IMG/VR virus record: IMGVR_UViG_3300028392_000166
Coordinates: 1-35,482 of that record
Direction: 5' to 3' (one strand)
From: a virus
DNA: 35,482 nucleotides
This document shows positions 9,199 through 34,915 of this stretch, one piece after another. The notes below the pieces were generated by a model. That model was not told the DNA's origin, did not search any database, and worked only from the letters and a program-made list of their open reading frames with translations. Made by a program: the position numbers and the translations under genes. Numbering within the stretch: the stretch's first letter is position 1; each line of letters opens with the position of its first letter.

Positions 9199-9486
9199 AT
9201 GGGATTACTAACATTATTAAACTCAGGAATAGGTAACTTAGGATACGATGGAGCAACAGTTCCTTCAACAGTGAACTCTAACCCACCCGGATTTACACGC
9301 CACAATTTATTCTCTACTACAGGACAACCTAACCAAGCTTCTCACATTATAGTAGGTGGGGTAAACGGGTTACAAGCACCACCAAGAAATTACATTCCTT
9401 CTAGATTAGAAGAAACAGACCCCTTAAACACTAGTCATTACAACAGTGCTGCTGGAAATCATTATACTGATCATTTACCTTTGTAA
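9199..9486 (+). CDS. Hypothetical virion-region protein
   Basis: The product has 95 residues and I do not recognise it. It is Gly/Asn/Pro/Thr-rich (NSGIGNLGYDGATVPS, NSNPPGFTRHN), with no membrane segment or catalytic motif and a His/Asp-rich C-terminus (NHYTDHLPL). The next gene starts 6 nt after its stop, so the two are probably co-expressed from the element at 9162. The composition and place between the tape-measure and baseplate genes suggest a small structural component. Confidence 0.55.
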   Translation: MGLLTLLNSGIGNLGYDGATVPSTVNSNPPGFTRHNLFSTTGQPNQASHIIVGGVNGLQAPPRNYIPSRLEETDPLNTSHYNSAAGNHYTDHLPL

Positions 9487-9492
9487 ATAAAC

Positions 9493-11592
9493 ATGTTAAT
9501 CAATCTAAAAACCAACCTAAAGTCTCTACAATTTGGACATGATGTTCAAGGTGGAGGCTCTAGTGGTCTTCCTTACATCAAAACTGGCTTACCTGAAGAT
9601 TCACCTGCGGGTGAATATCTTGCTGGTATCGCGAGAAACAGCGCGGATTGGCCGTTGAGAGGTGGGGTATACTCAACTGTGGCGGCTACAACAGATACTG
9701 TTAGAATCTCGCGTTTTTTAACCGACTTTCCACGCGGTTCAATATTCACTGCTAAACAAGTAGGTTTACAAAAATCTAATCCACAAATTGAAACCGGAGG
9801 TAAGACCTCAAGATTAAATACCCAAACATACAATTTAAACGCTAATTTATTAGCACAAGTTTTATTAGAAGGAGATGGTACTCATATCCCAAGAGCTGGA
9901 GCCAATACAAATGAGCTAGGACCTAACGGGCAAAAAAATAAATACGAGTACGTTGTATCACATAAAGATTCTTATAGTAATAGATTAGTTACTTTATATA
10001 ATCTAAAAATAGATCCTGAATCATTAGCATTTAATGCTACTACAGGGCCAGGTAGTACTCAAGTTTCATTAGGAACTGTAATAACCATAGCTGATAAACT
10101 AGGAATTAGTTCAGATAAAGATAATATTCTATTTGACTACCCAGGTGGGCCCGATTCATTATACGGAGACGGTAATACAACTATTTTTAAAGCAACTGAT
10201 TTTAAAGGTGTTTCTATAAATACATCAACATCTTTTGATACTTTTAAAAAAGGACCATTTACTAATACTAAATATAATCCTAATTTTAAAATATTATCTG
10301 AAAAAACCCCATTTAACTTTGTTACTGACAAATTTAATACTATATTAAAGTCAGATATAACTCCTAAGAACCTTAATGATAATATAGCTTCGGCACAAAA
10401 TACAGAGTACCAACAATCCAACTCAGATTATATAAGACCTGATTCGGTTCCTTCAGATATTAAGAAAAATGCTCCTATAAATTCTTTTGGGAATACCTTA
10501 TCATATAGAAGTCTATTAGAATCTAAAGGTGATGATTTAGCAGCAAAACCTATACTTCAAGATTTTAGATCTAAAACAATAGACCCAGATGATCCTGCTC
10601 GTTTTCAAGCACGTAATTATACTAGTTCTTTAGTTAATATAGAAACTAGAGTTGGTATAGGGAACCCTGGAGGTAGACTTAAAAAAGATAGAAAATGGGT
10701 AAATCAAGTTAATTATAATGGTCAAGATCAGGTAAATATGATACCATTATATTCGGATGCCGCAGATCCTTTTTTACATAAACCTGAAGCTAGAGATTTA
10801 ATTAAATTTGCTTTCGAAGTAATAAGCAATGATACTACTGGCACCTCTGAACGATATGATAAAACTGGTAAGATTACAAATGTAACAGACGCTATTACTA
10901 CTAAAGTACATTTTAGAGCATTTTTAACTAATTTTTCAGATAACCATGGAGCTGAATGGAGTAGTCAAAAATATATGGGTAGAGGTGAAAATTTTTACAC
11001 CTATCAAGGTTTTGATAGAGAGGTAAGTTTTCAATTTAAAGTAGCAGCTCAATCAAAACAAGAAATGTTACCTTTATGGCAAAAATTAAATTATTTAGCT
11101 TCCTCACTTTATCCTGATTATCAAACCGGTACAAGTTTTATGAGAGGTAACTTACATAGACTAACTATAGGAGAATACTTTTACAGAACACCAGGTATTA
11201 TAAAATCAATGAATATATCAGTTGATGATAATTATCCTTGGGAAATCAAATATTCAGAACCTGAAACACAAAAAGTATTTGCAACTGAAGATTTTACTAA
11301 TATTAATAACAAAGGAAAGAAAGACTTCACAGAGTCTAACTCAGATGCTGATATGATGGAGTTACCACAAGTATTAAATGTGTCTGTAACATTTACTCCT
11401 ATATTAAATGAATTACCTTCATTATCAAAACTAACTGAAAATGGTGGTGGTAAACATATATTAATAAGTGACCATGGTTTCCAAGAAAATTTCATAGACC
11501 GTATTCCTAATCTAACCGATACAGTCCCATTAAATAAAGGTGGATCATTTAATTCTGTGCTTTTTAATATTAATGCTCCTCCAACTAAATAA
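9493..11592 (+). CDS. Putative baseplate / tail-tube initiator-type structural protein
   Basis: The product has 699 residues. The opening LNLKNL-like stretch (NLKTNLKSLQFGHDVQGGGS, SGLPYI) and LRGGVYSTVAATTDTVRI form a conserved-looking block. Near residue 480-580 is a tube-like module: RAFLTNFSDNHGAEWSS, YMGRGENFYTYQGFDREVSF and LPLWQKLNYLASSLYP. That pattern recalls tube-cap/initiator proteins (T4 gp48/gp54) and related baseplate proteins. In T4 the order is also tape measure, 48, 54. A terminator follows, and the LysM-like gp53 relative comes next. The exact T4 equivalent is uncertain. The segment around 9600-9760 is noticeably richer in G+C than the rest of the gene. Confidence 0.6.
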   Translation: MLINLKTNLKSLQFGHDVQGGGSSGLPYIKTGLPEDSPAGEYLAGIARNSADWPLRGGVYSTVAATTDTVRISRFLTDFPRGSIFTAKQVGLQKSNPQIETGGKTSRLNTQTYNLNANLLAQVLLEGDGTHIPRAGANTNELGPNGQKNKYEYVVSHKDSYSNRLVTLYNLKIDPESLAFNATTGPGSTQVSLGTVITIADKLGISSDKDNILFDYPGGPDSLYGDGNTTIFKATDFKGVSINTSTSFDTFKKGPFTNTKYNPNFKILSEKTPFNFVTDKFNTILKSDITPKNLNDNIASAQNTEYQQSNSDYIRPDSVPSDIKKNAPINSFGNTLSYRSLLESKGDDLAAKPILQDFRSKTIDPDDPARFQARNYTSSLVNIETRVGIGNPGGRLKKDRKWVNQVNYNGQDQVNMIPLYSDAADPFLHKPEARDLIKFAFEVISNDTTGTSERYDKTGKITNVTDAITTKVHFRAFLTNFSDNHGAEWSSQKYMGRGENFYTYQGFDREVSFQFKVAAQSKQEMLPLWQKLNYLASSLYPDYQTGTSFMRGNLHRLTIGEYFYRTPGIIKSMNISVDDNYPWEIKYSEPETQKVFATEDFTNINNKGKKDFTESNSDADMMELPQVLNVSVTFTPILNELPSLSKLTENGGGKHILISDHGFQENFIDRIPNLTDTVPLNKGGSFNSVLFNINAPPTK

Positions 11593-32602: not shown

Positions 32603-33340
32603 ATGAAAGTTTACATATATTGCCTTTTTGATGAAAATGAGATTCCTATTTACATAGGGAAAACTAAAAATTCCTTAATTAAAAGGGAATCTCAACATCA
32701 AAAAAGATTAAAACAAAAAGTAAATATCTTTGAATTAGATTTTGTAGATGAAATTGATTGGAAACGTTGGGAATGTTTTTGGATAGAACAATTTAAAATT
32801 TGGGGTTTTAATTTATATAATCAAAATAAAGGTGGTGGTGGTGTTGAATCACACTCTTTAGAAACCCGAAATAAAATGAGTTCATCTTTTAGACCTGGAA
32901 CTTCTAAAAAACTTAAAGGTGTAAAAAGGCCTGATGTTAGTAATAGAATGAAAGGTACTAAATTTAGTGAAGAAACATGCCAAAAAATAACTCAATCTAA
33001 AACAGGACATCAATGTTATTCAAATCCTAAGAGGGCGTTAAAAATCGTTGAATCTAATTTAATTCATTATCAAACTGAATCGAATAGGAATAAAAAAATT
33101 TCTGAGAAGTTAATAGGTAGAGAAGCATCTTGGGTTAAAGATAGTTTAAGTAAACCTATTTTACAATTTGATAAACAGAACGTTTTTATTAAAGAATGGG
33201 AAAGTGCAAGTGAAGCAGCTAAATTTTTAAATAAGTCTTCATCAGCAATTTCTGAATGTTGCTTAGGAAAAAGAAAAAGTATTTACGGTTTTATTTGGAA
33301 ATTTAAAAATTCATTATCAAGAAAAAAAACAAAACATTAA
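32603..33340 (+). CDS. GIY-YIG homing endonuclease with NUMOD modules
   Basis: The product has 245 residues. The GIY-YIG nuclease domain (1-90) shows VYIYCLF, PIYIGKT, the conserved Arg in IKRESQH, and the Glu in CFWIEQFKIWG. A Gly-rich turn (KGGGGVESHS) follows. DNA-binding modules come next: NUMOD3-type basic repeats (KKLKGVKRPDVSNRMKGTKF, then ITQSKTG). A C-terminal NUMOD1-type helix-turn-helix reads KPILQFDKQNVFIKEWESAS, then EAAKFLNKSSSAISECCLGK. It is a free-standing homing endonuclease after queC. Its target is probably a site near the queC 3' region, by analogy with other phage homing genes. Confidence 0.85.
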   Translation: MKVYIYCLFDENEIPIYIGKTKNSLIKRESQHQKRLKQKVNIFELDFVDEIDWKRWECFWIEQFKIWGFNLYNQNKGGGGVESHSLETRNKMSSSFRPGTSKKLKGVKRPDVSNRMKGTKFSEETCQKITQSKTGHQCYSNPKRALKIVESNLIHYQTESNRNKKISEKLIGREASWVKDSLSKPILQFDKQNVFIKEWESASEAAKFLNKSSSAISECCLGKRKSIYGFIWKFKNSLSRKKTKH

Positions 33341-34039: not shown

Positions 34040-34201
34040 ATGAAAAAAGTATTTTTAGCATTAGCATTAGTAGCATTAGTAGTAGCAAGCTGCAAGGACG
34101 TAACTCCACCAACGAAATTGACAACAATTGATTCAGTATCAGTTAAAGTTGATTCAGTACAAGTAGATACGACTGCAGCCGATACTACAGTAAAAAAATA
34201 A
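34040..34201 (+). CDS. Small outer-envelope lipoprotein
   Basis: The product has 53 residues. It begins with a classic lipoprotein signal: MKK, the hydrophobic run VFLALALVALVV, then the lipobox VASC, followed by KDVT. The mature part is short, rich in Asp, Ser, Thr and Val (DSVSVKVDSVQVDTTAADTT) and ends in VKK. That composition is very common in small lipoproteins of Bacteroidota, so the gene may be host-derived. Phage-encoded lipoproteins often block superinfection or take part in lysis as outer-membrane spanins; either is possible here. The gene is too short for many gene finders, but its A-rich leader and strong signal make it convincing. Confidence 0.78.
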   Translation: MKKVFLALALVALVVASCKDVTPPTKLTTIDSVSVKVDSVQVDTTAADTTVKK

Positions 34202-34445
34202 AACACACCCCAGTAGATACGTCGCCAACTATATCTTTAAACAACGTGGGAACTGCGGCTCTCCCAATGTGGCTGGAATGTTTTAAAAATCAAAAACTAC
34301 TTAAGTAAGTGGGAGTGGTCAATCAACAACCCAAAGAAGTTTCAGGTAAATCAATATGACAACGGGATGGGCGAGCCTAAATACGTAAGTAGCAAGTTAA
34401 TGTGTTTTTTCAAGGATTGAATAGTTTTTAACATTAGCGAAAATA
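34202..34445 (+). other. Stretch without a recognised gene; open frame lacking a start codon
   Basis: This stretch is less A/T-rich than the surroundings. One frame (34241-34420, closed by TGA) is open for 59 codons and reads like protein (CGWNVLKIKNYLSKWEWSIN, then FQVNQYDNGMGEPKYV), but it has no ATG, GTG or TTG near its beginning. A 5-bp hairpin TGGGA/TCCCA is also visible around 34247-34268. It may be a decayed gene or a structured RNA; I cannot decide. Confidence 0.3.
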
Positions 34446-34575
34446 GGGAAGGTGGCGGAATTGGCATACGCAGTGGTTGTGCTTAATAAGTAGGGAATAA
34501 TCATCAATCCCGAAAGCCTTAATGTAAGGTGTAGCCCGCTTGATTCTTGTACAGGTTCGACCCCTGTCCTTCCTA
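34446..34575 (+). tRNA. Aberrant tRNA-like element (Leu-type body, ~50-nt insertion in the anticodon loop)
   Basis: Acceptor GGGAAGG (34446-34452) pairs with CCTTCCT (34568-34574), with discriminator A at 34575. The D stem GCG/CGC (34455-34457 with 34469-34471) encloses GAATTGGCATA. The T arm ACAGG/CCTGT has loop TTCGACC (34551-34567). The body TGGCGGAATTGGCATACGC is typical of bacterial tRNA-Leu. The anticodon stem can form only between AGTGG (34472-34476) and CCGCT (34536-34540), leaving 59 nt where 7 are expected. Inside are two hairpins, GGGA/TCCC and CCTTA/TAAGG. CCA is not encoded. This could be an intron-bearing tRNA, a pseudo-tRNA or a tRNA-like RNA with another role; no anticodon can be assigned. 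Confidence 0.6.
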
Positions 34576-34760
34576 CAAATTACCAATGCTCGCTGTTAAT
34601 TGATGATGGTGCTAAACGGATGAAAAAGGGTTTATAGTAATCTAGAGTACAAGCAAATCATTAATCAGAAACCCTGATCTTGTACAAGCCCCTTAACTGA
34701 TAACTCGGAAGGCTACAAGAAAGACCAAGGTTGGTAATATACACAAGGTGGGCGTAATGA
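34576..34760 (+). ncRNA. Structured non-coding stretch between tRNA-like elements
   Basis: No protein frame is supported. There is a nested hairpin: outer stem GTACAAG / CTTGTAC (34647-34653 with 34679-34685) and inner stem ATCAG / CTGAT (34664-34668 with 34674-34678), with a one-sided 10-nt bulge. An ACCAA/TTGGT palindrome follows near 34726-34740. These pairings suggest a folded RNA, perhaps a spacer or intron-like piece of the tRNA-like cluster. I find no clear group I intron core. Confidence 0.3.
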
Positions 34761-34841
34761 GGTAAGGTAACCGAATCCAGTCAAATGGTTGTCTAGTCCG
34801 TTTTAAATGAAACGGTATCCGGTTCGAGTCCGGCCCTTAAA
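34761..34841 (+). tRNA. Possible degenerate tRNA-like element
   Basis: The 3' half looks like a tRNA. It has an anticodon-like hairpin CCGTTT/AAACGG (34798-34803 with 34810-34815, loop TAAATG) and a T arm CCGG/CCGG with the canonical loop TTCGAGT (34819-34833), followed by CCCTTAAA. A D-arm-like AAATGGTTG lies upstream. The acceptor 5' strand is not convincing: GGTAAGG at 34761 pairs with CCTTAAA over only 5 of 7 positions. It may be a pseudo-tRNA or a split element. Confidence 0.3.
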
Positions 34842-34915
34842 GAATTAGTTGGTGTAATGGTAACATGGGTGGCCTGGTGCTGCTCAGATAAGGGTTCGAC
34901 TCCCTTACTAATTCC
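34842..34915 (+). tRNA. tRNA-like gene, isotype uncertain
   Basis: Acceptor AATTAGT (34843-34849) pairs perfectly with ACTAATT (34907-34913). A G at -1 faces C73, a feature of tRNA-His. D stem GTG/CAT surrounds TAATGGTAA. The T arm is AAGGG/CCCTT with loop TTCGACT (34890-34906). The anticodon stem GGTGG/CTGCT is closed by three wobble pairs. The loop reads CCTGGTG, with C instead of T at position 33 and TGG in the anticodon place (Pro by position), which conflicts with the His-like end. Overall length and arms are those of a normal class I tRNA. Function and identity are open. Confidence 0.55.

Follow-up and report, generated by a model that had tools for sequence, protein, structure and literature searches.

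The window analysed here is an entire phage record of 35.5 kb, whose genes include a tail sheath, a UvsX-like recombinase, a DnaB-like helicase, a ribonucleotide reductase and QueC. A homing-endonuclease-like gene is found immediately 3' of queC, at 32603–33340. From ~34200 to 34915 the window is largely non-coding. Three non-coding modules, A, B and C, occupy positions 34200–34445 and 34577–34737; they are conserved, have been recombined as units among relatives and gave no match to Rfam. Module A lies at 34200–34289. Module B (34577–34737, plus strand) is a structured RNA in which a helix clamp, TTACCAA/TTGGTAA, surrounds a core, GGGTTT/AAACCC, and an alignment of 12 sequences contains three pairs that have changed on both sides and are compensatory.

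The same region holds tRNA-like elements, all on the plus strand. TLS1 (34446–34575) lies directly upstream of module B and is our main subject. The second, TLS2 (34742–34840), has the D arm GGGCGTAATGAGG, the T arm CCGGTTCGAGTCCGG and a variable hairpin CCGTTTTAAATGAAACGG; its relatives in contigs L011, L042 and L066 have the full acceptor AGTCAGG/CCTGACT. The third, TLS3 (34843–34914), is the only tRNA that ARAGORN calls in the window without its intron option, as tRNA-Pro(tgg). The TLS3 orthologues in L011, L066 and L018 carry GAAA-type or 3-nt-loop hairpins at the anticodon place, together with D-loop extensions, and because of these small-loop hairpins we think that TLS3, despite the call, is probably without a real anticodon and non-decoding.

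TLS1 starts with the acceptor 5' strand GGGAAGG (34446–34452), which forms seven pairs, one of them G–U, with CCTTCCT at 34568–34574. T8 follows, and then a D arm of the tRNA-Leu type, GGCGGAATTGGCATACGC (34454–34471), the same as those of ordinary bacterial tRNA-Leu. At the 3' side the T arm, ACAGG TTCGACC CCTGT (34551–34567), leads into the acceptor 3' strand with the discriminator base A73 at 34575 (together 34568–34575). Between the two arms lie 79 nt (34472–34550), the insert or payload, which replaces the anticodon and variable arms. An earlier note on this DNA, the coordinates of which were right wherever checked, had described the acceptor, D and T arms as intact and laid out as in tRNA-Leu, with the anticodon arm absent; the three arms are indeed present at 34446–34575, and the 79 nt form no anticodon arm. 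Helix S1 (AGTGG at 34472–34476 with CCGCT at 34536–34540) encloses 59 nt with two hairpins, as had also been noted. These are H1 (34493–34511), with GGGA at 34493–34496 pairing with TCCC at 34508–34511, and H2 (CCTT/AAGG, 34517–34529), which varies in length among relatives. What had been overlooked in an otherwise correct structure is the predicted pseudoknot between AATCA in the H1 loop (34499–34503) and TGATT (34541–34545).

The Rfam tRNA model scores TLS1 at 31.2 bits, which is borderline (cut-off 29) and was seen only with a narrow search. ARAGORN, which had been proposed as a check with introns allowed, finds the element only in that mode, and as a 'tRNA-Tyr(gta)' with a 52-nt intron, that is, with a Tyr anticodon inside a Leu body; we regard this call as implausible. 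The minimum-energy folding of TLS1 alone is unremarkable and uninformative (z = 0.12), and the case for its structure rests on comparison.

For this comparison IMG/VR was scanned with a pattern made up of a tRNA-Leu D arm followed by a T loop after 65–95 nt, the usual spacing being 20–36; the acceptor was ignored. At least 119 contigs were found to have the same anatomy as TLS1, so that a whole family of such elements, often arrayed, exists that is not visible from the window alone. Among the matches listed, 101 elements were left after removal of duplicates; all seven acceptor pairs form in 80 of them and six of the seven in 6 more, and the T stem is completely paired in 93. The acceptor stems are of 64 distinct kinds, for which only 2.6 perfect stems would be expected with the partners shuffled. 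Of 78 non-redundant elements, 76 have U at position 48, compatible with the A15–U48 contact of the folded tRNA core, and 64 retain A73. The covariation of an acceptor that lay outside the selection pattern, together with the retention of U48 and A73, argues that the shell is under selection as a tRNA-like fold. A relaxed survey of all gathered loci, the sources of which are mostly metagenomic contigs, gave at least 183 distinct elements, 84 of them with the acceptor AGTCAGG; a minority of the set are matches to bacterial tRNA-Leu that are chimeric or were damaged in assembly.

A canonical anticodon arm after the D arm was found in none of 126 long elements, compared with 23 of 28 normal-length tRNA-Leu genes having the same D arm and subjected to the same test. 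Helices of 5 bp that flank the insert at the anticodon-stem offsets, such as would rebuild the stem if the insert were removed, were not above the level in shuffled inserts, and a universal helix closing the insert directly after the D arm was at chance level when sought. Thus, of the features of a functional tRNA-Leu, the 7-bp acceptor, the D and T arms and A73 are all found in TLS1, whilst the 5-bp anticodon stem, 7-nt loop and Leu anticodon are absent from it as from the 126 relatives. With the anticodon arm exchanged for a small RNA domain, the elements are non-decoding and probably have another job in infection.

The inserts comprise many mutually unrelated sequence families, and no 6-mer clearly exceeded shuffles as a motif common to the payloads. 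The folding energy of the 78 non-redundant inserts is lower than that of shuffled sequences (mean z = −0.95, t = −7.1). Pseudoknots were assessed by fixing the best helix that ends beside the T stem and comparing the crossing helix with that obtained in shuffled loops; the crossing helix, which creates an H-type pseudoknot, is better than composition predicts (mean z = −0.79, t = −5.0, n = 68). This enrichment at the level of the class is moderate: H-type pseudoknots are clear in L099, L194, L160 and L128, and many payloads have no clear pseudoknot.

The window insert belongs with one of these families, W, whose members related to it are found in L167, L181, L246, L254, L255, L270, L275 and L280. 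The architecture of W is that of the window, with S1 (AGTGG/CYGCT), H1 (GGGA/TCCC), an H2 of variable length and a pseudoknot that pairs the H1 loop with a strand 3' of S1. Within S1 the 3' strand changes between CTGCT and CCGCT, and H1 changes in a compensatory manner from GGGA/TCCC in the window to GGAA/TTCC in L181. At aligned positions the pseudoknot strands are AGACA/TGTCT in W and AATCA/TGATT in the window, two double compensatory changes that both depend on one comparison, since the window payload has distant relatives only. The earlier suggestion that relatives be compared for conserved pairing is thus answered by a family that keeps S1, the hairpins and the pseudoknot with compensatory changes instead of random mutation. 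When the W insert was sought by its own sequence, it was found in 17 contigs, in all 17 within a tRNA-like shell and with several different acceptors. A broadened pattern built on the window payload returned known W members only.

Exchange of these units can be followed in relatives found via QueC. The slot between modules A and B is empty in L070 and L011, holds another RNA in L050 and is filled by different tRNA-like elements in L073 and L047. The L047 locus (9270–9510) has a shell with a 35-nt D-loop insertion plus an insert of ~140 nt. The core of module B (GGTTAATAGTARG ... AGTAACCYYGAAAGACC) is itself the shell insert in L095, L099, L112 and L132, and is seen (read by eye) within another helical clamp in L063; one core can therefore be clamped either by a helix or by a tRNA shell. 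Elements are also arrayed, with five in L200, four in tandem with differing inserts in L027, and six in L127. The six adjoin true tRNA-Leu(taa) and tRNA-Leu(tag) genes, and are therefore no replacement for decoding tRNAs.

In a genome collection of 84,980 species there were 43 pattern matches, of which ~14 were judged to be of the shell-plus-insert type and the rest were ordinary or chimeric tRNA-Leu. Most of the ~14 come from Bacteroidota (Riemerella, Sphingobacterium, Bacteroides, Prevotella). Some of the genomic elements are visibly in prophages, and some (L240, L213) have genes for a phage terminase and portal in their vicinity. In the cyanobacterial genomes L208, L215 and L231 (Nostoc, Prochloron, Paraprochloron) a tRNA-Leu-like element is conserved whose insert, of 80 nt, belongs to another type. 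A BLAST search of named phages with the shell gave mostly ordinary tRNA-Leu or YrlA-like matches and one unannotated candidate, at ~604–709 of L292, in the cultured Leuconostoc phage phiLM33_01 (PV780767.1). An unannotated tRNA-like element in crAssphage cr4_1 (L289, ~1940–2026) has a 9-nt loop at the anticodon position. No conserved partner gene was found within 4 kb of the elements, the neighbours clustering only as ordinary phage genes, in at most five loci.

Three readings of TLS1 had been offered in the earlier note, a mini-intron, a decayed tRNA and a tRNA mimic, and only the last agrees with the data: the shell is kept, the anticodon arm lost and the inserts conserved. That TLS1 is a functional tRNA with a mini group I or bulge-helix-bulge intron might seem to follow from the 52-nt intron forced by ARAGORN, but the anticodon so produced is Tyr in a Leu body, an Rfam search of the window gave no intron family, and the lack of canonical arms in all 126 elements, with the flanking helix at the shuffle level, means that the reading fails for the whole class; we consider it extremely improbable. 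A decayed tRNA gene would be expected to lack its anticodon, as TLS1 does, but is ruled out by the covarying acceptors and the compensatory changes in the payloads, and with the element recurring in unrelated phages its probability is negligible. The shell could instead be mere RNA punctuation, an RNase P/RNase Z cut site between neighbouring phage transcripts. The elements inspected do sit between genes or RNA modules and on the same strand as the adjoining genes, but conserved pseudoknotted payloads, and tandem arrays in which the payloads differ, would be left unexplained, and this reading is very unlikely. The shell might also be the active part, along the lines of the decoy for host nucleases or synthetases that the earlier note suggested: a decoy or substrate for host enzymes that recognise the acceptor, D and T arms and are blind to the anticodon (LeuRS, tRNA-modifying toxins or toxins attacking the 3' end), with an insert that merely blocks decoding. 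The anticodon is dispensable for bacterial LeuRS, and a D loop of the Leu type has been preserved together with A73; against this, the payloads are structured and are conserved within families across different acceptors, which is unexpected for filler. We therefore view a decoy shell as unlikely.

The explanation that we favour, and consider probable, is that TLS1 is a phage-encoded, non-decoding RNA in which a tRNA-Leu shell serves to mature, protect or present an RNA payload that varies between elements. Its anatomy, the selection on the shell, the structure and conservation of the payloads, their modular exchange and the phage arrays are directly supported by the observations above. The shell would be kept whole, with its acceptor, D arm, T arm, elbow contacts and A73, for the sake of tRNA-like processing. 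A tRNA-like shell is expected to undergo maturation by RNase P and RNase Z, to receive CCA and to resist exonucleases, and the tRNA machinery of the host (RNase P, RNase Z, CCA enzyme and possibly LeuRS) may trim and stabilise the shell RNA in this way; the shell might even be leucylated, because bacterial LeuRS ignores the anticodon. The compact, partly pseudoknotted payload that replaces the anticodon and variable arms would then be the active part. We infer that it acts in trans as a regulatory or anti-defence RNA, by binding a partner of host or phage origin that is most likely a protein. More tentatively, the elements may represent a widespread class of phage RNA 'cassettes', in which a constant tRNA-Leu shell carries many unrelated pseudoknotted payloads that are exchanged and arrayed, each countering or steering a different host factor; this we regard as possible rather than likely.

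If the shell-plus-payload explanation is true, phages have evolved a natural counterpart to the 'tRNA scaffold' used in the laboratory, and would be a source of many new structured RNAs, of which some may have an anti-defence role. Annotators label such elements as missing, undetermined, suppressor or wrong-anticodon tRNAs, so that phage non-coding RNAs may have escaped notice in large numbers. No published description of such elements was found in a search that covered few subscription papers or preprints; the family is apparently undescribed, a tRNA-mimicking non-coding RNA that is possibly a class of its own.

Among known systems, YrlA (RF02553) is similar in being a non-decoding mimic that has acceptor, D and T arms and a different domain in the position of the anticodon arm, and in occurring in phages as well as bacteria. 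Y RNAs have been described as partners of Ro60/Rsr (PMC7790460, PMC12282133), and TLS1 might accordingly be imagined as tethering Ro60/Rsr through a Ro-binding stem at the anticodon position. In Caulobacter phage CcrColossus (L282, 600–1600) a TROVE-like gene is indeed closely preceded by several weak YrlA-like matches. YrlA is, however, circularly permuted, the Rfam model running from T arm through the acceptor hairpin to D arm, and has a closed acceptor, a Ro60-binding stem and a location near rsr (TROVE), whereas the shell elements are unpermuted, with an open acceptor bearing A73 and varied payloads. With TROVE in only 1 of 50 element-bearing contigs and no RF02553 match in the window, we reject membership of YrlA and give this reading only a very slim chance. 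In Klebsiella phage vB_KpM_FBKp24 (L281, 1500–1750) a permuted tRNA domain resembling YrlA comes after a Leu-type D arm, and an overlapping stretch carries the annotation tRNA-Sup-TTA.

The likeness to tmRNA lies in tRNA-like ends and a structured, pseudoknot-bearing insert instead of the anticodon arm. tmRNA is ~350 nt long and encodes a tag peptide, whereas the shell elements have an intact D stem, a D arm of the tRNA-Leu type and an insert of typically 50–100 nt; membership was rejected, there being no Rfam tmRNA among the window matches listed (one overlapping match of the same clan was not displayed). A phage contig, L050, has a tmRNA at 9554–9913 (Rfam 77.9 bits) adjoining the same RNA block as that of the window. 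GOLLD and ROOL are large structured phage RNAs, often beside tRNA arrays (PMC12286853); neither was matched by Rfam in the window, and the shell elements differ in being ~90–150 nt and tRNA-shaped. Finally, the Bacillus cereus pseudo-tRNA tRNAOther is reported to be a tRNA-like RNA without a translation function (PMC3399842). It is a single chromosomal case, whereas the shell elements are a phage family with swapped inserts.
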